From: an uncultured bacterium
GTDB taxonomy: Bacteria; Bacillota; Clostridia; Oscillospirales; Oscillospiraceae
NCBI GenBank assembly: GCA_947643715.1
Contig: CANRXB010000013.1
Location: forward strand, 1 to 63,790
Direction: 5' to 3'
Length of the DNA: 63,790 nt
The notes under the pieces: model-generated
What the model was told of the DNA's origin: nothing
Database searches by the model: none
The model's input: the letters and a program-made list of their open reading frames with translations, nothing else
In this document: positions 48,667 to 59,567 of the stretch, piece after piece
Layout: the number at the start of each line of letters is the position of its first letter
Numbering within the stretch: the stretch's first letter is position 1
Made by a program: the position numbers and the translations under genes

Positions 48667-49434
48667 TCACACATAGTACAAAAACTTTGTGTTATACTTT
48701 TTGTACATCCAGCATCCGATGCCAAGGGCGATGAGCGTGTCCGCCAGCATCAGCAGATGGAACCAGACGGTGGGGACCGTGGCTTCGATCACGATCTTCC
48801 GGAAGTATCGGATGAAGAGATAGACCGGGTTGAGCAGGAACAGACACTGCACCGAATAGTCGTACTGCTCGATGGTGTAGAAGATGGCGGACATATACAT
48901 CAGCAGCATGGTGAACACGTCATAGAGATACTGCGTGTCCCGAAAGAACACGAAGAGGGCGGAGAGGATCATGCCTACCCCGACGTTGAACAGGATCAGG
49001 CACACGACCGGGAAGAGGAGGCAGAGGAACTTCCACGTGAACGGTAGCCCGTCCAGGGCCACGAAGGTGAAGAACACGATGAGGATCAGCCCGAAATTGA
49101 TCAGCGACTGCATGTTCCGGGACAGCAGGAACAGATACTTGGGCACGTTCACCTTGGTGAAGATCCCGGCATTGCCCATGATGGTGCCCATGCCGCCTTT
49201 GGTCGCGTCGCTGAAGAAGGAGAACACCAGGTTCCCGCAGAAGATGTAGATCATGAAGTGGGGCGTGGTCCGCCCAAAGAACCGGGTGAACACCAATGTC
49301 AGCACCAGGAGCTGGAGCAGCGGCGACAGGACGCTCCACGCCATGCCGAGGATGGTCCGTTTGTATTTCTTCTTGAAATCCCGCTTCACCAGCTCTTCAA
49401 AGAGGAAACGGTGCTTGCGCAGCTTCTCGATCAT
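48667..49434 (-). CDS. ABC-2 type polysaccharide/polyol phosphate export permease (Wzm/TagG-like)
   Basis: This 255-aa membrane protein has six helices. It begins with the amphipathic segment KLRKHRFLFEELVKRDFKKKYK and then RTILGMAWSVLSPLLQLLVL, the family signature of Wzm/TagG permeases that export lipid-linked glycans. It is the last gene of the glycan operon. Its ATPase partner (Wzt/TagH) is not found in the window. The start overlaps the oxidoreductase gene by 4 bp. Confidence 0.88.
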   Translation of the reverse strand: MIEKLRKHRFLFEELVKRDFKKKYKRTILGMAWSVLSPLLQLLVLTLVFTRFFGRTTPHFMIYIFCGNLVFSFFSDATKGGMGTIMGNAGIFTKVNVPKYLFLLSRNMQSLINFGLILIVFFTFVALDGLPFTWKFLCLLFPVVCLILFNVGVGMILSALFVFFRDTQYLYDVFTMLLMYMSAIFYTIEQYDYSVQCLFLLNPVYLFIRYFRKIVIEATVPTVWFHLLMLADTLIALGIGCWMYKKYNTKFLYYV

Positions 49435-50456
49435 AGCGCGGGCCCGCGGCCGGTGTTCCCATAGATCCGTTCCACCAGCTCCATCACGCGCACCGCGTCC
49501 TGCGCCGTGCCGTTGCGGATGGGCGTGCCGGACACCACTGCCTCATAGAACTCCTGGTGCTCGTGCTCCCAGGACTGGTCCTGGTCGAAGCACATGGTGT
49601 GCTCCAACGGCTTGCCCAACGCTCCGCTCCTGGCGTTGAGGTCCTTCTTGTAATAGGTCATCTTTTCCTCCCCATAGCTGTTGGTGGAGGTGATCAGGCC
49701 GTTGAGAGCGATATATCCCTGGGTGCAGATGATGTCCAGATCGAACTTGTGCCGCCATTGCAGCGCGTTGGAGTGCAGGGACGCCAGCTTCCCGTCCTGC
49801 GTTTTCAGGATGGCGAAAGCCGAGTCCTCCGTGGGGAGCTGCTTCCATACCAGCGTGTCCACGCTGCGCCCCATGATCCGATCGAACTCCCCTAAGAAAT
49901 ACCGCAGCAGGTCCAGCATGTGGATCCCCTGGTCGAGAAGGATCCCGCCGCCGGACAGGCGGATATCGTTGCGCCATTCCTCGGCGAAGGTGGGGCTCCC
50001 GGCCTTCCCGTAGACGCCCCGAGCGCATACCACGTCGCCGATCAGCCCGGACTGGATCAGCGCCTTGGCCTCGATCACGCAGTTATGGTAGCGGTGGTTG
50101 AAGCCGAACTTCAGCACGCACTCCGGATGGCGTTCCCCTTCCCGGCGCATGGCTTCCGCGTCGGCCAGGTCCCGCCCCGGCGGCTTTTCAGAGAACACGT
50201 GCTTGCCCAGGGACAGCGCGCGGCACACCACAGCCGGGATGGCTGCGTTCACGGTACATACGAACACGACCTCCGGGTCGCACCGGGCCAAGCACTCCTC
50301 CCAATCCACGTATCCCGGTTCCGGATAGCCCTGGAGGTTCTCAGGCTTCTCGTCGCACACGCCTGTGATCTGGAACCCTCCATGCCGTTTCAATTTCTCA
50401 TACCGCATCTTGCCCATGCGGCCCATCCCGATCACCACGGTAGTCAAACGTTTCAT
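49431..50456 (-). CDS. Gfo/Idh/MocA-family oxidoreductase
   Basis: This 341-aa NAD(P)-dependent sugar oxidoreductase has the Rossmann motif TVVIGMGRMGKMRYEKLK, VNAAIPAVVCRALSLGKHVF and the conserved EKPPGRDLADAEAM. FGFNHRYHN and GGGILLDQGIHMLDLLRYF are typical of the C-terminal substrate domain, which carries the catalytic Lys/His. It probably oxidises a sugar or nucleotide sugar used in the glycan. 4-bp overlaps occur on both sides. Confidence 0.85.
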   Translation of the reverse strand: MKRLTTVVIGMGRMGKMRYEKLKRHGGFQITGVCDEKPENLQGYPEPGYVDWEECLARCDPEVVFVCTVNAAIPAVVCRALSLGKHVFSEKPPGRDLADAEAMRREGERHPECVLKFGFNHRYHNCVIEAKALIQSGLIGDVVCARGVYGKAGSPTFAEEWRNDIRLSGGGILLDQGIHMLDLLRYFLGEFDRIMGRSVDTLVWKQLPTEDSAFAILKTQDGKLASLHSNALQWRHKFDLDIICTQGYIALNGLITSTNSYGEEKMTYYKKDLNARSGALGKPLEHTMCFDQDQSWEHEHQEFYEAVVSGTPIRNGTAQDAVRVMELVERIYGNTGRGPAL

Positions 50457-51406
50457 TTGTCGGCCACCTTCTTTGCCACGATATGCGCGTAAGAGCTCAT
50501 GCCGCTCTTCTGCAAGAAACGCTGGAACTCTCCCAACACGATGGGATCGCTGTTGAAGATCAGGTTCCGCACGAACAGGTCCTGCGCCGGGATCAGCGCC
50601 CGCCTGCTGTGGACATATCCCACGTCCATATGGCCGGGCGTCGTAAGGTCCAGTATCTCGAAGCCCGTCCGCGCCAAGACCGCCTCCAGCCCCCGCTGGG
50701 ACAGCAGGGACACGTATCCGTAGGGATAGATCGGGGCGTGTTCCCGAAGCACCAGGACGTCGAAGCCCGTGCCTAGCCGGGCGCTGAGGAACAACAGCCC
50801 GCCCGGGGCCAGACAGCGGCCGATCTCCATCAGCTCCCGCTCGGGACAGTTGGACTGCTGGATCAGGTCCAGGCTCACCGCGATGTCCGCCGTTCCGTCC
50901 GGCTCCTGCTCCCATATCGGGCGGTAGGACCGGCACAGCGGGCTGGCGCGCATCAGCTCGGTGAAGCCGGTGTAGCGGTCGCCGCCGGTGACTGCCGTCA
51001 GGTCCTCGTGCCGGCCCAGGTGGCGGAAGCACCGGAAACGGATCCAATCCAACGTCTCTTGCCAGGACTGCATCCGCTTCTGCGTCGCCTCGCCCTGATA
51101 TTCTGGAGAGGAGCGGAAGCGGGTCAGAGCCTCGTCCTGCCGGTATGCCTCCAGCGCGGCGTCCCCCACCTCGGTGAACACGCTGGCGCAGTCGTCGCAC
51201 ATGAGATACGCCGCGCCCCATTTCACGAAGAACGGGACGATGTGCGAGCTCCCGCAGCCGGGGCACCGGGCAGGGCCGTCGGTGTCGAGCTGTAATACCC
51301 GATCCACCGCTGTTTTCGCCAGCCACAGCTCCTCATTGAAGCGCTTCGCGTCCTGTATCTCACTGCGCCCCTTGGTATACTCTGTGTAATCATAAGCCCT
51401 GAGCAT
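50453..51406 (-). CDS. Zn-ribbon class I SAM methyltransferase
   Basis: This 317-aa protein has a zinc ribbon at about residues 48-75 (CPGCGSSHIVPFF and MCDDCASVF). A methyltransferase-like domain follows, in which DIAVSLDLIQQSNCPERELM and LAPGGLLFLSARLGTGFDVL are the late motifs. The first SAM-binding Gly-rich loop is weak. Related proteins act on sugars in surface polysaccharide loci. It overlaps the oxidoreductase gene by 4 bp and the IMPase gene by 17 bp. Confidence 0.75.
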   Translation of the reverse strand: MLRAYDYTEYTKGRSEIQDAKRFNEELWLAKTAVDRVLQLDTDGPARCPGCGSSHIVPFFVKWGAAYLMCDDCASVFTEVGDAALEAYRQDEALTRFRSSPEYQGEATQKRMQSWQETLDWIRFRCFRHLGRHEDLTAVTGGDRYTGFTELMRASPLCRSYRPIWEQEPDGTADIAVSLDLIQQSNCPERELMEIGRCLAPGGLLFLSARLGTGFDVLVLREHAPIYPYGYVSLLSQRGLEAVLARTGFEILDLTTPGHMDVGYVHSRRALIPAQDLFVRNLIFNSDPIVLGEFQRFLQKSGMSSYAHIVAKKVADK

Positions 51407-52151
51407 CGAGATCCTCCATCAGCGCCCGGTTCGCAAAGATCTTGCAGACACAGGCGTCCTCCCCCAGTTCCTGTACCGATACGGCCGCGCCGGCCGCAGT
51501 GGCGATGGCCGCAGCTGCGGCCACGTCCCACAGCATGATATGGTCCTCCATGTAAGCGTCCACGCGGCCCGCCGCCACGAACGTGCCCATGATAGCCGCC
51601 GCGCCCAGCATCCGCACCTTTTTGAAGCATTGGATCTGGCGGATGAAGCTGCTCAGGCTCTGCGCGCTGTAGTCCCTGCGCACTGGGAACCCGGTGGCTA
51701 AGACCGCGCGGCCGGCCTGCGTCACCGGGGAGGGCGCGATGGCCTGTCCGTTGCACCAGGCCCCTTCCCCCACGACCCCGCAGTACAGCTCATGAGCGGC
51801 GTAGCGGTATACCACGCCCAGCACCGGGCGGTCGCCCTTCCACAGCGCGACGGACACGCAGGTGAGCTCGGTGAGTCCCTTCAAATGGTTCGCCGTTCCG
51901 TCCAGGGGATCGACGATCCAGCGCAGGTCCTGCTCGCCGCGTCCCTCCAGCAGACCGCATTCTTCCGACAGGATTGGAGCGTCGCTCCCGGCCCGCAGGA
52001 CGCCGACGATCGCCTGTTCGCTCTCCTTGTCTGCGGACAGCTTGATGTCCTTGCCCTGCTCGCTGTCGATCCTGACGGGGCCTTGGGCGCTCAGGACGCG
52101 CGCGCCTTCTTTGGCCGCCGTTACGGCCAGTTCAAGCTCTTTCTCATACAC
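51390..52151 (-). CDS. Inositol monophosphatase-family phosphatase
   Basis: This 253-aa Mg-dependent phosphatase has motif 1 ILSEECG, motif 2 WIVDPLDGTANH and motif 3 LWDVAAAAAIA. Family members dephosphorylate inositol phosphate, fructose bisphosphate, PAP or sugar phosphates. In this locus a sugar-phosphate intermediate is the likely substrate. A GTG start at 52151 overlaps the dehydrogenase gene by 8 bp. Confidence 0.85.
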   Translation of the reverse strand: MYEKELELAVTAAKEGARVLSAQGPVRIDSEQGKDIKLSADKESEQAIVGVLRAGSDAPILSEECGLLEGRGEQDLRWIVDPLDGTANHLKGLTELTCVSVALWKGDRPVLGVVYRYAAHELYCGVVGEGAWCNGQAIAPSPVTQAGRAVLATGFPVRRDYSAQSLSSFIRQIQCFKKVRMLGAAAIMGTFVAAGRVDAYMEDHIMLWDVAAAAAIATAAGAAVSVQELGEDACVCKIFANRALMEDLDAQGL

Positions 52152-53031
52152 AGCCGAGATCCTCCAACAGATTTTGTACCGCCGCCGTCTCCATGTCCTC
52201 CCGGCAGCGGGTGGTGTAAGTGGAAAGGTGGGGGGTCAGGATCGCGTTGGGGCATCCGCACAGCGGCCCGTGGTAGGGCTCCTGCCACAGCGCGTCCCCC
52301 CAGTACCAGGAGACCCTGCCGTCCTTTAGCCGCTCGTACAGGGCTTGCTCGTCCACCAGCCCGCCCCGGGCGCTGTTGAGCACCATCACGCCGGGCCGGC
52401 ACAGGTCCAGCTCCCGGCCCGACAGGATCGTGTCCTTCCCAGCGGCGTGCAGGGAGATCGCGTTCGCCCAGGAAAGCCCTTCCTCCAGGGTGCAGTCCGC
52501 CGGCTGATATTTGTCATAGGCCCGGACCTGCGCCCCCAGATCCCGGAGGAGCTGCGCCGTGCGCCGGCCGATGCGACCGTAGCCGATCACCAGCACCTTC
52601 ATGCCCCGCACGGAGGATCCCATCCGCTTTTTCCACACGCCCTGATGGACGTCGGCGTTGGCCGGGACGAGCTGATGGGCGATGCACAGCAGCGCCGCGG
52701 CGGTCATCTCCGCCACCGCCTGCGTCGGCCCGTCCGGCGTGTTGGAGACCTTGATATCATGCCGCCGAGCCGCCTCCAGGTCCACGTTGTCCATCCCGAT
52801 GCCGATCCGCGCCACCGCCCGCAGCCCGGGACAGGCGGAGAACACCTGCTCGTCCAGCGGTTCCAGGCCGGCCAGCAGGCCGTCCGCCCCCTGCAAGTGC
52901 GCGATGGTCTCCTCCTTCGTCAGCTTTCTCCCAAAGGGGTTCTTCGCCACCTCGATGCCGCGCTGCTCCAGCAGGGCGATGGCCTTGCCGCTGTCCGCCG
53001 CGAAGGAGGACGCGCCCACTGCTACCTTCAT
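52144..53031 (-). CDS. D-2-hydroxyacid (phosphoglycerate-type) dehydrogenase
   Basis: This 295-aa NAD-dependent dehydrogenase has the nucleotide loop VLVIGYGRIGRRTAQLLRDL, ARIGIGMDNVDLEAA with VSNTPDGPTQAVAEMT, the catalytic Arg in LNSARGGLVDE and a C-terminal LTPHLSTYT with His. SerA-like enzymes in glycan loci can oxidise phosphoglycerate or a sugar acid to make a precursor. It overlaps the gmhA-like gene by 1 bp. Confidence 0.85.
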   Translation of the reverse strand: MKVAVGASSFAADSGKAIALLEQRGIEVAKNPFGRKLTKEETIAHLQGADGLLAGLEPLDEQVFSACPGLRAVARIGIGMDNVDLEAARRHDIKVSNTPDGPTQAVAEMTAAALLCIAHQLVPANADVHQGVWKKRMGSSVRGMKVLVIGYGRIGRRTAQLLRDLGAQVRAYDKYQPADCTLEEGLSWANAISLHAAGKDTILSGRELDLCRPGVMVLNSARGGLVDEQALYERLKDGRVSWYWGDALWQEPYHGPLCGCPNAILTPHLSTYTTRCREDMETAAVQNLLEDLGCV

Positions 53032-53606
53032 CAGTGCCGCCCTCCCATATACTCCTCCAGGAAGGAGTCCAGCACGTCGTGGAGCAGCACCGCGTGGGCG
53101 CTCTCCACCAGGCCGTAAGTATCCAGAGGGACGTAGAAGTTCAGGTCCCCCAGCTTCCGGGAGCGGTTGCCCGCGCTCTTCCCGGAGAGCGTGACCACGA
53201 ACGCGCCCTTTCGGTGGGCCGCTTCGATGGCGCGCACCACGTTGGGCGAATCCCCGGAAGAGGAGATCGTGACCAGGATGTCCTTCTCGCCCAGCACCCG
53301 CTCGATGCGGTAGGCGAACACGTCCTCATACGAGACGTCGTTGCTGATGGCCGTGATATGCGCGGTCTCCGAGCAGGTGTAGGTGTTCACCTTCCCGTTC
53401 TGGAACCAGTCGTGGGACATATGCTCCGCCATGGTGGCGCTGGCCCCGTTGCCGCAGAAGAACATCGTCCCGCCCTGCCGCTGCAGCTCCCGGGCGCGGC
53501 AGGTCCACTGGGACACACCTTCCTCCAATGTGACGGCCTGGGTCCCGCAGGTCACCTGCGTGTGGGACAGCCCGTCCGCGATCTCTGTGAAATATGGGAT
53601 GCTCAT
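53031..53606 (-). CDS. SIS-domain phosphoheptose isomerase-like protein (GmhA family)
   Basis: This 191-aa SIS protein resembles GmhA: FFCGNGASATMAEHMSHDW, AISNDVSYEDVFAYRIERVL, LVTISSSGDSPNVVRAIEAA and ESAHAVLLHDVLDSF. GmhA converts sedoheptulose-7-phosphate to heptose-7-phosphate, the first step to GDP- or ADP-heptose. Whether this homologue makes heptose is not certain. Its ATG overlaps the stop of the full-length acyltransferase frame by 4 bp. Confidence 0.82.
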   Translation of the reverse strand: MSIPYFTEIADGLSHTQVTCGTQAVTLEEGVSQWTCRARELQRQGGTMFFCGNGASATMAEHMSHDWFQNGKVNTYTCSETAHITAISNDVSYEDVFAYRIERVLGEKDILVTISSSGDSPNVVRAIEAAHRKGAFVVTLSGKSAGNRSRKLGDLNFYVPLDTYGLVESAHAVLLHDVLDSFLEEYMGGRH

Positions 53607-54690
53607 GATGACTCCTCCTTTGTGTTTGGACCAAAAAATAGATGGGCCGCGCGCTTTCTCCACACCGAGAGCGCTTTGGGCAGCAGCCGGTCCAACAGGG
53701 CCGCGCCGGCCAGCGTCACCGCGATCACGCCAAGGCACCCCGCCAGGGGGCTGTCTGCGATCTGGCGCGCTTTGAACAGCTTCCATATGGATTCATGCAG
53801 CAGATAGATGGGGTACGCCAGTCCACCCAGCCAGCAGATGGATCTGTGCAATGTGATGAATCGGGGGGGGGGGGGGGTACACATTTTGTTGTATATCTTG
53901 ACGTGTCCGATGAGAACAGACAGCCGACGGAACACGCCGCGAGGAAGATGTACCAGAGATCTGCGAAGCTGTGATACGTCTTGATGGACGTGAACAGGAC
54001 GACCGCCAGCCCCAGGTTGCCCAGCACAGTGAGGACCGTGCGGCCCGCGGCGCTGAGACTGTGCCGTCCGCCGTTCACGGCTGTGGCCACTATGACGCCC
54101 AAGGAGAGCGCGGCGAAGGCCCGCCAGAGGCCGTCGTGGCCCACGGCAAAGACCGACCGGGAGGTGGTGAGGTGTATCCTGCCCGCCACTTCCGCGAACC
54201 GTCCATAGATCAGCACCACGCAGACCGGCAGTATCTCGCGTCGGATCGTCTGCTTCTCGTCCCAAGTGAGGAGGGCCCACAGCAGCGCGCCAGCGATCAG
54301 CATGGCCGCTATGAACCAGGTCACGCCGTTGATGGACGTGCCGATCCGCAGCATGAACATCTCCGGGAAGGAGCGATAGATGCGCTCCAGGACCTTTTGC
54401 CACGGCGCCGCGTCGGTGATGCCCCGCAGGACCGCGGTGAACAGGTACGCGCACAGGTACATCGGCCAGAGCCGTGCGAACCGTCCCCGCAGATAGCCGC
54501 CGGCAGACAGCCCGCCCTGCCGCGTGCACTTCTCATGGGAGGCCGCCAGGAGATAGCCCGAAATGATGAAAAACACATCGACGCCGATATATCCCCCGGT
54601 CTTGACGCCGTATACATGCCCCAGCGTGTGGTATACCACCATGTAGATCGCGAATATCCACCGCCAGAGTTCGATCCAGACGTTTTTCAA
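53603..54690 (-). CDS. Acyltransferase-3 membrane protein A, interrupted at a C15 tract (phase-variable candidate)
   Basis: The ATG at 54690 opens an acyltransferase-3 (OafA/WecH-like) protein: MKNVWIELWRWIFAIYMVVY, then H, GGYIGVDVFFIISGYLLA, about eight membrane helices. At 53877-53863 the coding strand has 15 C. In the given frame the protein ends in unrelated residues at 53725 (321 aa). A shift of one base restores RFITLHRSICWLGGLAYPIY and LLHESIWKLF, the normal last helices, and the stop at 53603-53605 overlaps the gmhA start by 4 bp like other genes here. A tract of 13 or 16 C would give a 361-362 aa protein. It probably acylates a glycan lipid-linked precursor. Confidence 0.8.
53863..53877. 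repeat. Homopolymer tract, 15 G (plus strand), inside acyltransferase A
   Basis: Fifteen consecutive G on the plus strand (C on the coding strand) at 53863-53877. It encodes poly-Pro before the last helices. In-frame translation of the intact C-terminus needs n = 3k+1; n is 15 here, so the gene is off by one base. Such tracts mutate by slipped-strand mispairing. Confidence 0.9.
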
Positions 54691-54739: not shown

Positions 54740-55805
54740 TCACCCGCGCTTCTTAGTGAGCCGGAGACATACCGCGTGGATCGCAGCCGATGTGATGATG
54801 GAGTAAAGGGTCAGGAGCACCAGATATACCGGGATGATGCCCGGATGGTAGACCGGCCTGGCCCAGACCAGGACTTTGATCACAAGGTAGTGGTTCAGGT
54901 AGACTGCAAGCAGTATCCCCCCCCCCCCCGAGCGGGGAGGCCGGATCCGTTCCGGCTTTTCCATCGGCCTTCGCCAGCGCGCTTTCCCCGCCGGTGAGCA
55001 GCACGGTGGAGAGGGCGAAACAGGCGATGTAGAAGAAGCAGGCGGCGCGATACCACCGATAGCTGGCGGCGGCCGCCAGTAACATGACGGCGGCTCCGGC
55101 GAGGATCGATAGCCACGCAGTGCGCTCCGGCGACCGGCGAGCTTCCACCCAGGCGCGGTATCCCTGGTGGGCGCGATAGCACACTGCGCCCAGCAGCATC
55201 CCCGCCACGGCGCGCAGGGCCGCGTAGTTCAGCACGCCGAACACGTGGGTGCGCCAGTTGTTGGTCGTCCCCAGGGTGTAGGCCATGTAGGCATATATCC
55301 AGAAGGAGGCCACCGGCGCGGCCGTCAGCAGCGCGTGCTCATGCCGGTCCAGCAGCGCCCACAAGACGTAGCCCACGATGAGCAGGATGGAGATGTACCA
55401 GGTGCTGCTGTTCAGGATGACCGTCTTTTCGTCGCTGAGTATCGTGCCGTACAGCATAGATATCTCCGTGGCGGACTGCGTGAGCTTTCGTCCCAGCTCG
55501 GCCAGGCCGTAGTGGTTCTGGAAGGAATACCGCCAGAGGAACAGCATCAAAAAGCTGAAGATGTAGTGGGGGTAGAACTTCTTGGCCCTGGACCATGTAT
55601 ACTGGAGCGGCGTGCGGGAACGGGGGCTCCGGTCGTGCTGCTCCATCAGGAAGAAGCCGGAGACCAGGAAGAAGAACTCAACGGCGATGAACCCGCCCAG
55701 GCCGCGCTGCTCGTAGTGGGCCCAGAGGTGGAACACGGCGATCATCATGGTGAACAGCGCTTTGGCCAGGTCGATCGTGACATATCTGCGCACCGTTTTC
55801 TCCAT
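54740..55805 (-). CDS. Acyltransferase-3 membrane protein B, interrupted at a G13 tract (phase-variable candidate)
   Basis: The ATG at 55805 opens a second acyltransferase-3 protein: YVTIDLAKALFTMMIAVFHL, then GGFIAVEFFFLVSGFFLMEQ, and later helices. At 54929-54917 the coding strand has 13 G. As written the product ends in a non-membrane tail (GGGGDTACSLPEPLP...), stopping at 54753 (350 aa). In the frame one base away the tract is followed by ILLAVYLNHYLVIKVL and IIPVYLVLLTLYSIITSAA, proper terminal helices, ending at 54740. A tract of 12 or 15 G gives about 354-355 aa. It lies 10 bp after the cytidylyltransferase gene. Confidence 0.8.
54917..54929. repeat. Homopolymer tract, 13 C (plus strand), inside acyltransferase B
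   Basis: Thirteen consecutive C on the plus strand (G on the coding strand) at 54917-54929. The intact C-terminus requires n = 3k; n is 13 here, so it is one base too long or two too short. It encodes poly-Gly in the periplasmic-side loop region. Confidence 0.9.
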
Positions 55806-55815
55806 GGCGTCCTCC

Positions 55816-56547
55816 TCAGTAGGGGAGATGGTCTTCGGTGAAGCCCTCTTGCCGGAGCCAGTGTTCCACCTGGGGGATCTGCCACGCGGCGTCCACGTCC
55901 AGACCGCCCCAATTGGAGACGGCGTAGCTCTTACGCCCCATCCACGGGTAAGGGAGCATCCCGTCCTCGATCTGCTCCAGGCACCGTGGGCGCACGATGA
56001 ACGTGCCGTCGGTGAAATAGATCTTCCCCTGGGAGTCCCGTTCGCTGGTGGCCCCCCGGAGCTGTTCTTGAGACAGGAAATTGCGGATCGTCCCGTCCGG
56101 GCCCACCAGACGTGCCCGGGCCGGGGTGAACGCGCTGTATTCGGATACCGTCGCCGCGGAATCGTACTCCGGCCGCTCTCGAAGGACCCGGATCGCCTCG
56201 CTCAGATGGCGGGGCAAAACGAAGGGGGCGTTGCATTGCAGCAGCACGACCAGCTCCACGTCCCGGCCCAGGGCGCGGACGTGCTGGTATCCGTGCACCA
56301 TGGCGTCCTGATGCTTGGCCTGCTCGGTACAGAGGTAGTCCGGGCGGTCGATGATCTGCGCGCCGTTGCGGCGGCCGATCTCCTTGATCTTCGCGTCGTC
56401 CGTGGACACGAAGATGTCGTCTATCTCCGGGGTGTGCTTGGCTGCCAGCAGCGCGTACTCCATCAGCGGCCGCCCCAGCACGGGACAGGTGTTCTTCCCC
56501 GGGAAGCCGACGCTCCCGCCCCGGCCCAATATCAATGCTGCTATCAT
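55816..56547 (-). CDS. Acylneuraminate/CMP-sugar cytidylyltransferase-like protein
   Basis: This 243-aa NeuA/KdsB-type nucleotidyltransferase begins MIAALILGRGGSVGFPGKN with the CTP-binding loop, then IFVSTDDAKIKEIGRRNGA and LLQCNAPFVLPRHLSEAI. It would activate a sugar acid or related sugar to its CMP derivative for the glycan. The exact sugar is unknown; no NeuB-like synthase is present. The ATG at 56547 has AGGAG upstream; an alternative ATG at 56577 extends it by 10 residues. Confidence 0.83.
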   Translation of the reverse strand: MIAALILGRGGSVGFPGKNTCPVLGRPLMEYALLAAKHTPEIDDIFVSTDDAKIKEIGRRNGAQIIDRPDYLCTEQAKHQDAMVHGYQHVRALGRDVELVVLLQCNAPFVLPRHLSEAIRVLRERPEYDSAATVSEYSAFTPARARLVGPDGTIRNFLSQEQLRGATSERDSQGKIYFTDGTFIVRPRCLEQIEDGMLPYPWMGRKSYAVSNWGGLDVDAAWQIPQVEHWLRQEGFTEDHLPY

Positions 56548-56573
56548 GGATGGATCTCCTCCTCTTTTTTTGT

Positions 56574-59567
56574 TCATACCGGCTGCGCAGGTATGGCCAG
56601 ATGCTGGACGATCTGTAGCACGATCTGCTCCAGCAAGCTGTCCTCTTCCTCCGGGGTATACACATAGTCATACTGATCCGTCTGCCCGAACATAGCGGAC
56701 ATCGAGTAGTATTCGTGGTTCGTGCCGACAAGGCTCCGCTTATAATCGTTCTTGGGATGGAGCGAGATCTTCAGGCATTTCGCGCTGCTGACCACGTCTA
56801 AAAAGCCGCTGCGCAGCCCGATCACCGCGCCGGCCATCTCCACGAAAGGCGCGGCGCATGAGATCGGGGGACATACCGCTTTCGTATGGTCCAAGGGCGG
56901 TTCGAACTCCCCGTTGGAATTGGTGCAGACACAAAGCCCGTTCCGGGTCAAACCTTTCACCAGCTTCCTCCAAAAGGTGGAGGAGAGCGGTCTCACCGTT
57001 TTCGCATATGGAGAGATCAAAACGGTCCTGCCCGGGACGAGGCCGTTTCCTTGGAAGATCTCGTTCAGCAGATCCGTGTTACGCTCAAAGGTCGGCTTGG
57101 TGAGGGGCGTCGATGCTTCGAGCCCCAATTGGGCCAGTGTGGCGGAAAGGAAGTTGAAATGATGGATGCCCTCCAGATACCGCAGGATCAAGGGGTGGAC
57201 GAAAGCGGTGTTGTAATGCATCCGCTCCACATGGACCTGCCGCTGCTGGTCGAACAGCAGCAGCACGTATATCTGCTGGTTGATCTCCTCGAACGAAAAG
57301 GGCACGGCTTCGATCCCGAACAGCTTGGCCACCTTCACGCCGACGGACTGGAAAACGCCCAGGACCGGCGTATATCCAGGATGGGCCTTTTGGGAATAGG
57401 CGTCAAAGAGCGATCCAAATATGTAGGCGTCGCCGATCCCGGAGGGAGAAAGATACATCCAGGCGTTTTCTCCATATTCCTGCACGAACTTTTGATATAG
57501 CCTATATCCAGGGAGCACGTGCTCGGAGAATCGTTTCCATATCCGGAACGAGCCAGATTGTTCGATGCGCCGTTTCATGTCTGCCAGCGGCCTCCTGGCT
57601 CCCTCGCCTATGCGCGCGATCGTGTACTTCAAGCCGTGCTCACGCAGGCAGCGGATGCCTCCGCGGACCTTGGATCCCAGCTTTCGGAGCCTGTAGGCCA
57701 GACGGCTGTTCTTGAGTTTTTTGTTCTCGGAATCCAGCTTCTGGTTCTCGGCTTTCAACCTTCTGATCCTCCTGTTCAACGGATCGGTATTGTATTTTTT
57801 GTTGTAGCGAGCGTATAGGGACAAACACTGGTAGGATAGCTGTGGGTCCTCCTGCTCGATGCTGTCTGCTATAGACGGGAGGAACCGTTGTGCGGATCTC
57901 CTCCAATCGTAGGATACTTGGGTCTCTTCCTGCCGTTCGTGGAGGCCGACGTATAGCCTAGCGAATCCCAACGGAGGGATGTTGCGTCCGTCATAGATAT
58001 GGAACAGAAAATTATACGCGATATTAGAGTATCTGGGTTCCTCTTGGGGATATTTGGTGTACGACCGTGAGCTTGCCTCTTCGAAGAACGAGAGGAAGTT
58101 CGCGATGGCCATGTCCGGCTCCCTTCGCTGCCGGTATATCAGACCCAGATAGTAATGATATGGACCTTTGCAGAGGATGTCCTCTTCCGGGATATCGAGG
58201 ATCTCGTCATAACGCTCCAGCTCATACAGCGCTTCCAGCACGAAGGACTGGTCGATCGGATCGTCGCTGAGCAGCTCTGCATGGTCGGCGACGATCTGCA
58301 TCTGTAGAGTGCGGAAACGCGCAGTATAGTCCTGGTATGCGGGGCCTGTCAGCGCGAGATCTCGATACGTATCGTCCAGCTCGTTATAATATCGGGAGAA
58401 ATCCACCTGACGAGTCAACTTATAAGAAAACTGGGCCACCCTGCGCTGGATGATGTCCCGCACCCGTTCCTGTTTCAGCGATGTCAGCGTGATCGCGGGA
58501 TCTGAGACCATCCGCTCCTTGTACGTCGCATCGTCATACTCGATTGCGGCAGGATACATACCATATTGCAGGAAGTGGTCCCAAACGTGTTCCATCACGT
58601 CTGCGATGCGTTTGGAGGCGCCTGTCCCGTGCGGATATAAGTTCTGTATGAACTCCTCGCTGGCGTGCAGTCCATATGGAAGATAGTTCACCACATCACG
58701 GTGATCCACGACGCATCCGCCCTCGGAGTAGAACTCCCGCTGGCCGTCGATATCTATCTCGTTACGGATGTCCCACTTGTCCTCGTTGTCCCAGCCAGAG
58801 AGGACGAGGATCCCCTTTCCTTGGGCAATCACATGCGCCGCGACAGTGGAATAGAGCGTGATGACCGAGATGCTGCTGTCGATCAGCTCCTGCATAGGCC
58901 GGTGTTCGTTGAGCATCAAGAGGTTATCCGGGATCTCGCCGCCGCACCGCTGCTCGATGATGGTATACAGATGCTCCGTGTTCTTGTGGGAATAGTGGGC
59001 CCCACTGTCCCGGAGCCATCGGGGCTTGATGCACAGCTCGTAGTCCGGGAACGCTTTGCAGATCTCCAAAAGGGTGTCCGCGATCTGGATCTTTCCCTTC
59101 GTTCCGAACGGCATGTGCCCGCTGTCGATGAAGAGGATGCGTTTGGGATCGTCCGCCGGAGCGGTGTGGACGCCGTCGTGCTTGGGATCGCCCACCGTCA
59201 TGGAGGCACACCGAAAGCTGCACCGGGGCATCAGACCACGGCGGCAGGTGAACAGGAAATCCGCCCCGTCCGTCATGAAGTATTCGTTGATGTATGGGGC
59301 GTAGACGAAACAGTACACATCGAAAAATTTGACGCGCTCCATCGCCATGACGCTGCAAAAACCGACGTCGAACTTGTGCGCTTCCTTCTCGGTCAGTTCC
59401 TTCGACGGCTTGATGGCCGCTTTCAATCCCGCGAACATCCTGAGGGAACTGCTGTCCTGGAACGGGGCGTAGATGGTGAGCTCATGTCCCCGGGCTTCCA
59501 GCTCGTACAATACGTTCTCTATAGCCAGATTGTCTCCGTCGTTGAAGGAGACCACGAATATTTTCAT
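56574..59567 (-). CDS. Large two-domain glycosyltransferase-like protein, 997 aa
   Basis: This 997-aa protein has at least three parts. The N-terminal 380 residues look like a GT-B fold (MKIFVVSFNDGDNLAIENVL, RILFIDSGHMPFGTKGKIQI, LIDSSISVITLYSTVAAHVI), close to CDP-glycerol or 2-epimerase-type transferases. The middle (about 390-640) is helical and TPR-like with a coiled coil LKAENQKLDSENKKLKNS. The C-terminal 300 residues are a GT9-like domain (SPSGIGDAYIFGSLFDAYS, PGRTVLISPYAKTVRPL, AGAVIGLRSGFLDVVSSAK) paralogous to the adjacent gene at 59569. It probably adds sugars or polyol phosphate in the cytoplasm. The linkage is unknown. Confidence 0.72.
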   Translation of the reverse strand: MKIFVVSFNDGDNLAIENVLYELEARGHELTIYAPFQDSSSLRMFAGLKAAIKPSKELTEKEAHKFDVGFCSVMAMERVKFFDVYCFVYAPYINEYFMTDGADFLFTCRRGLMPRCSFRCASMTVGDPKHDGVHTAPADDPKRILFIDSGHMPFGTKGKIQIADTLLEICKAFPDYELCIKPRWLRDSGAHYSHKNTEHLYTIIEQRCGGEIPDNLLMLNEHRPMQELIDSSISVITLYSTVAAHVIAQGKGILVLSGWDNEDKWDIRNEIDIDGQREFYSEGGCVVDHRDVVNYLPYGLHASEEFIQNLYPHGTGASKRIADVMEHVWDHFLQYGMYPAAIEYDDATYKERMVSDPAITLTSLKQERVRDIIQRRVAQFSYKLTRQVDFSRYYNELDDTYRDLALTGPAYQDYTARFRTLQMQIVADHAELLSDDPIDQSFVLEALYELERYDEILDIPEEDILCKGPYHYYLGLIYRQRREPDMAIANFLSFFEEASSRSYTKYPQEEPRYSNIAYNFLFHIYDGRNIPPLGFARLYVGLHERQEETQVSYDWRRSAQRFLPSIADSIEQEDPQLSYQCLSLYARYNKKYNTDPLNRRIRRLKAENQKLDSENKKLKNSRLAYRLRKLGSKVRGGIRCLREHGLKYTIARIGEGARRPLADMKRRIEQSGSFRIWKRFSEHVLPGYRLYQKFVQEYGENAWMYLSPSGIGDAYIFGSLFDAYSQKAHPGYTPVLGVFQSVGVKVAKLFGIEAVPFSFEEINQQIYVLLLFDQQRQVHVERMHYNTAFVHPLILRYLEGIHHFNFLSATLAQLGLEASTPLTKPTFERNTDLLNEIFQGNGLVPGRTVLISPYAKTVRPLSSTFWRKLVKGLTRNGLCVCTNSNGEFEPPLDHTKAVCPPISCAAPFVEMAGAVIGLRSGFLDVVSSAKCLKISLHPKNDYKRSLVGTNHEYYSMSAMFGQTDQYDYVYTPEEEDSLLEQIVLQIVQHLAIPAQPV

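Follow-up and report, generated by a model that had tools for sequence, protein, structure and literature searches.

Acyltransferase A, a gene of the acyltransferase-3 (AT3) family, is broken three quarters along its frame by a run of 15 C. This raises the question of whether the break marks a switch operated by changes in run length, a gene on its way out or an error of the assembly. The gene lies in a stretch of 63,790 nucleotides (hereafter the window, meaning the whole stretch of DNA analysed), which is contig 13 of a 93-contig genome of 2.63 Mb. All run lengths given for this source genome come from one assembly of one genome, in which homopolymer lengths may be wrong.

Acyltransferase A starts with a TTG at 54690, and 813 bases (271 codons) precede the run. 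The frame that enters the run continues for 50 codons, of which the first five are the run itself, up to a stop at 53725, which yields 321 amino acids in total. Base count and frame arithmetic agree here with the first-pass annotation, which had reported the same run and the same frame end. The upstream piece matches positions 1-252 of the PF01757 profile (E 5e-18, 65.6 bits against a cut-off of 31) and columns 26-296 of a family HMM built from 10 homologues, from which homologue L175 was left out. One base off, the downstream frame reads RFITLHRSICWLGGLAYPIYLLHES..., given also as WLGGLAYPIYLLHES, and ends on the TGA at 53605-53603; four bases are shared between this end and the start of the SIS gene (ATG at 53606). 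Against PF01757, this downstream piece aligns to positions 274-324 with an E-value of 0.012 and 15.1 bits, under the cut-off of 31. In the 10-homologue HMM, only the family frame matches (E 1.4e-6, columns 308-371), and its codon bias amounts to +19.3 bits versus -39.0 and -45.5. The first-pass annotation had placed the C-terminal sequence of the family one base away, with its stop at 53603 and a four-base overlap with the next ATG, and both the HMM and the codon bias bear this out. Its addition that the same coupling is used elsewhere in the operon is loose, as the junction gaps are +10, +49, -4, -1, -8 and -17. Because the run sits so late in the frame, being 'OFF' means for acyltransferase A a product of 321 residues that ends in the wrong tail and not the absence of protein.

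The first-pass annotation had passed over a run of 13 G in the sister gene acyltransferase B, 1 kb upstream of the C run. The upstream piece of this gene matches PF01757 as well (profile 3-259, 54.3 bits against the cut-off of 31), such that the upstream pieces of both genes exceed the curated cut-off of the family. The downstream piece of B has no match in Pfam, whereas on the 10-homologue HMM the two pieces of B occupy columns 25-298 and 316-363 (E 7e-4 for the 3' piece). The remaining frames of the 3' pieces of A and B score below 0 bits or are not reported by this HMM. Codon bias again singles out the family frame in B (+18.0 bits versus -19.3 and -46.1). In both genes, a one-base change of frame thus separates two halves that both match the family, and the split sites (columns 296-308 in A and 298-316 in B) fall in the same loop. 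On the coding strand, the run consists of C in A and of G in B, and the two proteins are 29% identical; it is therefore unlikely, as judged from the sequences, that both runs descend from a single inherited one. Decay of the 3' half, which had been put forward as the mark of a plain pseudogene, is seen in neither gene: 86 (A) and 58 (B) codons past the break are free of stops, and the 3' parts retain a family match in one frame and their coding bias.

Table 1. Features of the acyltransferase operon in the window, and isolated G/C runs of at least 9 elsewhere in the source genome (named by contig).
Feature	Position	Strand	Basis or gene context	Frame
Run of 15 C, acyltransferase A	53863..53877	minus	C on coding strand; base count and Markov expectation	
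Acyltransferase A before the run, 271 codons	53878..54690	minus	PF01757 profile 1-252	
Acyltransferase A C-terminal part, 86 codons and stop	53603..53863	minus	Weak Pfam match, family HMM, codon bias	Neighbouring frame
Run of 13 G, acyltransferase B	54917..54929	minus	G on coding strand; run count and Markov expectation	
Acyltransferase B before the run, 292 codons	54930..55805	minus	PF01757 profile 3-259	
Acyltransferase B C-terminal part, 58 codons and stop	54740..54916	minus	Family HMM, codon bias	Neighbouring frame
ABC-2 membrane permease, probable polysaccharide export	48667..49434	minus	PF01061; NCBIfam galactan/KpsM permease models below cut-off	
Methyltransferase-like protein	50453..51406	minus	PF13489, 28.7 bits (cut-off 27)	
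Inositol-monophosphatase-family protein	51390..52151	minus	PF00459	
D-2-hydroxyacid dehydrogenase-family protein	52144..53031	minus	PF02826	
SIS-domain protein, phosphoheptose-isomerase-like	53031..53606	minus	PF13580 over cut-off; NCBIfam below cut-off; start overlaps end of A	
Cytidylyltransferase, gene preceding B	55816..56577	minus	PF02348 over cut-off	
Contig C38, run of 15			AT3 with extra N-terminal part	Open
Contig C56, run of 10	L050:1502-1511		AT3, after the domain	Open
Contig C23, run of 11 (G11)			MBOAT	Out of frame near C-terminus
Contig C47, run of 11			CDP-glycerol glycerophosphotransferase, directly past one domain match	Open
Contig C7, run of 9			RgpF	Open
Contig C19, run of 9			Hpt-like, by eye	
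Contig C8, run of 14			Beside ComM-like fragment, by eye	

The gene content of the operon (Table 1), including the cytidylyltransferase, the SIS protein and the ABC-2 permease, suggests that the acceptor of the acylation is probably an exported glycan. Finer NCBIfam names for the operon proteins all come from matches under the respective cut-offs. Based on family and operon together, A and B would transfer O-acyl groups to a surface glycan.

Both runs are far longer than chance would produce. The G/C runs of the window fall into two length classes, with 29 of length 6 and four of length 7 on one side, a single 13 and a single 15 on the other, and none of 8 to 12 in between. Under a first-order Markov model, 0.029 runs of at least 13 are expected in the window, while two are seen, both in AT3 genes. 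A weaker test is given by C9 words, which number 12 in the window compared to a mean of 4.17 in 100 dinucleotide shuffles, 12 being reached in 2 out of 100. A chance origin of the C15 and G13 runs was rejected on the Markov expectation.

For the complete source genome, a pattern search retrieved 44 G/C runs of at least 9. About 117 are expected under the first-order Markov model, so there is no excess at this length. The excess is confined to runs of at least 13, with 1.2 expected genome-wide and four present (in A, B and on contigs C8 and C38). After dropping 27 runs at most 150 bp from a contig end, many of them in low-complexity junk, and eight of the remaining 17 that lie in low-complexity clusters (contigs C1, C2 and C11), nine isolated runs are left, i.e., those in A and B and the seven further ones in Table 1. 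Seven out of nine are located in surface-glycan genes and five out of nine in AT3 or MBOAT genes (p 2.3e-8 when a generous 1.1% of the genome is allotted to these). The frame states are mixed: A, B and the C23 MBOAT gene are out of frame, while the genes on C38, C47, C7 and C56 are open. As runs of 9 show no genome-wide excess, those on C7 and C19 may have arisen by chance. The genes around the runs on C8 and C19, like most of those around runs in relatives, were named by eye and not by a family search.

Some of these runs have a particular setting. The 10-base G run on C56 lies between the end of the AT3 domain and an RBS-like sequence with the ATG of an ABC permease, where its length would alter the end of the AT3 frame relative to the permease gene. 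The 14-base run on C8 (near 51460, locus L070) joins a ComM-like fragment without its N-terminal part to unrelated sequence, and this junction is perhaps the end of an island or a misjoin. A run of eight G on contig C9 (47231-47238; L164:732-739) is situated inside the match to an MBOAT paralogue with the frame open, and is perhaps a nascent or a chance tract. Many contig ends (for example C11, C22, C31, C39 and C42; also in genomes G013, G022, G028, G039 and G040) display clustered long runs of G, C and A with a junk-like appearance.

Besides single-base runs, the genome carries tetra- and pentanucleotide arrays, which were counted in 940143 bases including both ends of 91 of the 93 contigs. 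Arrays of at least four copies occur at eight contig ends and at one short internal site (C49). PF01757 has 11 matches in the source genome, 10 of them over the cut-off, and four are halves at contig ends: (CAGGA)n borders the ends of C73 (profile 2-197) and C50 (218-324, under the cut-off), and (AACC)n or its complement those of C69 (2-201) and C36 (215-324). An MBOAT gene is found at the (CTGG)n end of C71 (PF03062) with the complement at C28, the latter side being identified from its ending and not by Pfam. Finally, the AT3 gene lying at one end of C56 starts within (AGTC)n, and C67, whose end has this unit too, contributes an ATG and eight codons ahead of the repeat. This places a four-base array just past the start codon, which is the arrangement of the Haemophilus lic genes. 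The eight ends thus pair by repeat unit into four loci, all in or at the start of AT3 or MBOAT genes. Since the ends of a pair share the repeat unit and carry halves that complement each other, we infer that each pair is a single gene. At six of the eight ends the array is 55 bases long to the base, as if a limit of the assembler had been reached, and the true arrays are probably longer. With these four out of four array loci added to the seven isolated runs mentioned above, the repeats of this genome are spread over several loci that mostly serve the surface glycan.

The long runs also share flanking bases. Written as G runs, TC precedes five of the nine isolated runs compared to 13 of 387 runs of 6 to 8 (binomial 5e-6), and TA follows six of nine compared to seven of 387 (binomial 3e-9), the TC-Gn-TA motif having been picked after the flanks had been inspected. 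TC before and TA after long G runs tend to appear whatever the coding strand (source loci L035-L050, genus loci L080-L108). A search for TC-Gn-TA across the genus gave five matches in three of 42 genomes, three of them in the source genome, and none for the reversed control. In relatives, TA follows six of the 12 internal runs of at least 11 that were read (13 were eligible at more than 150 bp from contig ends; G040:C135 was left out). A useful stop codon past the run does not explain the motif, because in A the G run lies on the strand opposite to the coding one. We know of no description of a tract-forming process or a portable tract of this kind. It is conceivable, though we rate it as rather doubtful, that a commensal-type lineage here holds a Haemophilus-style arsenal of three repeat classes on membrane O-acyltransferases in combination with a TC-Gn-TA context that seeds or keeps G runs on either strand. 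If real, the shared flank makes the origin of such runs testable.

Homologues in relatives mostly lack such runs. MBOAT homologues (E up to 1e-30) are present in all 42 genomes of the genus, and the 19 loci taken from other genomes are continuous, end with the C-terminus of the family and contain no G/C run of at least 8. Acyltransferase A is less widespread, with matches in two of 42 genus genomes and in nine of 400 family genomes (at 1e-10), the source genome included in both counts. The eight other family loci that match A have no G/C run of at least 8 either, which brings the homologues without such a run to 27 loci (19 MBOAT, eight AT3). Among the 42 genus genomes, no orthologue of A crosses the run position apart from one with 27% identity in genome G029. 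A protein search with A against named genome contigs confirmed no relative (the source genome possibly lies outside that collection), and a DNA pattern scan of named genomes for ten G ahead of the C-terminal AT3 motif returned 0 matches. Out-of-frame AT3 genes at a repeat are found in two other species of the family. In G029, an AT3 gene with a run of nine G matches PF01757 at 2-181 and 228-324 (under the cut-off) in different frames. In G214, which belongs to another genus, (CCAG)8 follows straight after the ATG of an AT3 gene (PF01757, E 1.1e-32), and the frame of this ATG is not that of the enzyme.

Six-copy arrays of two tetranucleotide patterns are uncommon, occurring in three and seven of 400 family genomes with the source genome included. 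Most long G runs in relatives are, by eye, not located in acyltransferase genes; some are in phage-like DNA and others are intergenic. For instance, a run of 13 G in G014 (L108:1502-1514) abuts a TATAAT upstream of an HNH-like frame (by eye), as if it set the promoter spacing, and in G010 (L106:1502-1512) a run of 11 G, followed by TAG, sits close to the 3' end of what by eye is the frame of a phage-like DNA methylase. Four family genomes (L342 in G213, L343 in G406, L344 in G226 and L345 in G077) have an (ACTG)n-type array just inside a short frame behind a similar leader, GGGGTTGAC..ATGGC, which is not an acyltransferase. A (GCTG)24 array in G398 (L319:1500-1595) is apparently outside acyltransferase genes.

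We consider it very probable that A and B are simple-sequence-repeat contingency genes for phase variation of surface O-acylation. The contingency gene proposed by the first-pass annotation gains support from the split sister gene B, the other repeat loci in the genome, the MBOAT homologues without a run and the out-of-frame AT3 genes of two other species. Replication slippage would alter the run length and thereby bring the C-terminal membrane part of A or B in or out of frame, such that cells would randomly gain or lose the production of a functional membrane O-acyltransferase. From this enzyme, the surface polysaccharide on which the operon acts would receive acyl groups, probably acetyl ones. 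A set of mono-, tetra- and pentanucleotide repeat loci in AT3 and MBOAT genes and glycan transferases could then generate many combinations of decorations within one clone. As assembled, neither A nor B would keep its conserved end, and the stop of A no longer overlaps the start of the SIS gene. Slippage in vivo, its reversibility and rate, the loss of activity out of frame, the substrate and a benefit such as escape from phages or immunity are what we infer on the basis of sequence. Several points weigh against this reading: the dependence on one assembly with possibly wrong homopolymer lengths and run-rich junk at many contig ends, the missing genome-wide excess of G/C runs of at least 9, the 0 matches of the pattern scan of named genomes, the long G runs of relatives outside surface genes, and the single 27% orthologue of A in the genus.

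The strongest competitor, still an improbable one, holds that the C-terminal sequence itself is switched: a membrane protein would be made in either frame (321 or about 361 residues), and the change of tail would alter its activity or its partners. The late position of the run in A (codon 272), the 50 codons for which the out-of-frame reading stays open and the run on C56 behind the AT3 domain all fit this idea, and the parts of PMC2823697 cited here describe late runs in Helicobacter canadensis in such terms. Yet what is lost in A, B and the C23 MBOAT gene is conserved family sequence and not a free tail, and the alternative tails are without any family match. In the same frame data, one might see plain pseudogenes, with accidental frameshifts in two genes that are disappearing, since both A and B are out of frame in the sole assembly. 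This is very improbable given that the 3' parts keep their frame, coding bias and family match, that other repeat genes are open and that repeats of three types turn up again and again in a single functional class.

Slightly less probable still is an artefact of assembly or sequencing, in which the true run length differs or a poly-G artefact was inserted and the genes are in fact intact. Short reads struggle with run lengths above approximately 10, and contig ends hold junk runs of G, C and A. However, the flanks are unique and connect the halves of a single gene in their proper order, the runs occur both as C and as G and are accompanied by contig-breaking tetra- and pentanucleotide arrays of about 55 bases, and an error in length would leave the long run itself in place. 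Long homopolymers can also promote transcriptional slippage, and this or programmed frameshifting might yield some full-length protein from out-of-frame DNA. As a substitute for switching we find this hardly credible, as it leaves the tetra- and pentanucleotide arrays and the mix of open and broken loci unexplained; it could, on the other hand, accompany switching. Phase variation by repeat length remains our preferred reading of A and B. If true, clonal populations would comprise cells with different combinations of decorations, with a bearing on phage resistance, immune recognition and the comparison of strains. In practice, these are the very genes that short-read assemblies interrupt or put in the wrong frame, as at eight contig ends here, so that annotation would take them for pseudogenes or overlook them.

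Repeat-driven phase variation is best known from mucosal pathogens, while the switches usually cited for gut commensals are DNA inversions. Among Gram-positive bacteria, pneumococcal wciZ of serotype 15B/15C is a repeat-switched gene, and the repeat type of NeuO of E. coli K1 differs from that of A and B. None of the literature matches listed concerns, by title or abstract, repeat-driven phase variation in Clostridia or Oscillospiraceae, from which we do not claim its absence from print. In the parts cited, a 2025 review (PMC11868660) brings up Clostridioides difficile in no other connection than invertible promoters and the signalling related to them, and the consulted portions of PMC13317340 and PMC12355684 hold nothing closer to the A/B switch. 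NeuO, a phase-variable enzyme of capsule O-acetylation (PMC3046976, in part), is soluble, prophage-encoded and of another family, unlike A and B. In Firmicutes, pneumococcal wcyO is a capsule O-acetyltransferase in which one-base indels in homopolymeric regions are described as pseudogene mutations (excerpts of PMC6218050), and pil1 of Streptococcus gallolyticus is a surface-gene repeat switch that acts via the leader peptide (excerpts of PMC3894217). As far as these excerpts go, A and B resemble them in that repeat-length or homopolymer frameshifts affect Firmicute surface genes; they differ in being part of a set in which many loci carry long runs.

Among the known systems closest to A and B is oafA of Haemophilus influenzae, a phase-variable AT3 O-acetyltransferase of LOS with tetranucleotide repeats and a frameshifted copy in Rd (PMC9558356, passages on this gene). 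Both systems involve an AT3 acyltransferase gene with a repeat, but A and B carry single-base runs late in the gene, the source genome has AT3 and MBOAT genes at several loci with repeats of three classes, and the host is of a different kind. Intragenic and intergenic G/C tracts are both reported for Campylobacter (PMC8355987, in part). For H. canadensis, the consulted sections of PMC2823697 report coding G/C homopolymers, some of them late, together with tract lengths that vary among reads and 'C-terminal phase variation'. There, the late runs are linked to a change of tail, whereas those of A and B remove conserved helices. The kind of switch is thus a known one, and the novelty lies in the host, in how densely such loci populate a single enzyme class, and in the flank.
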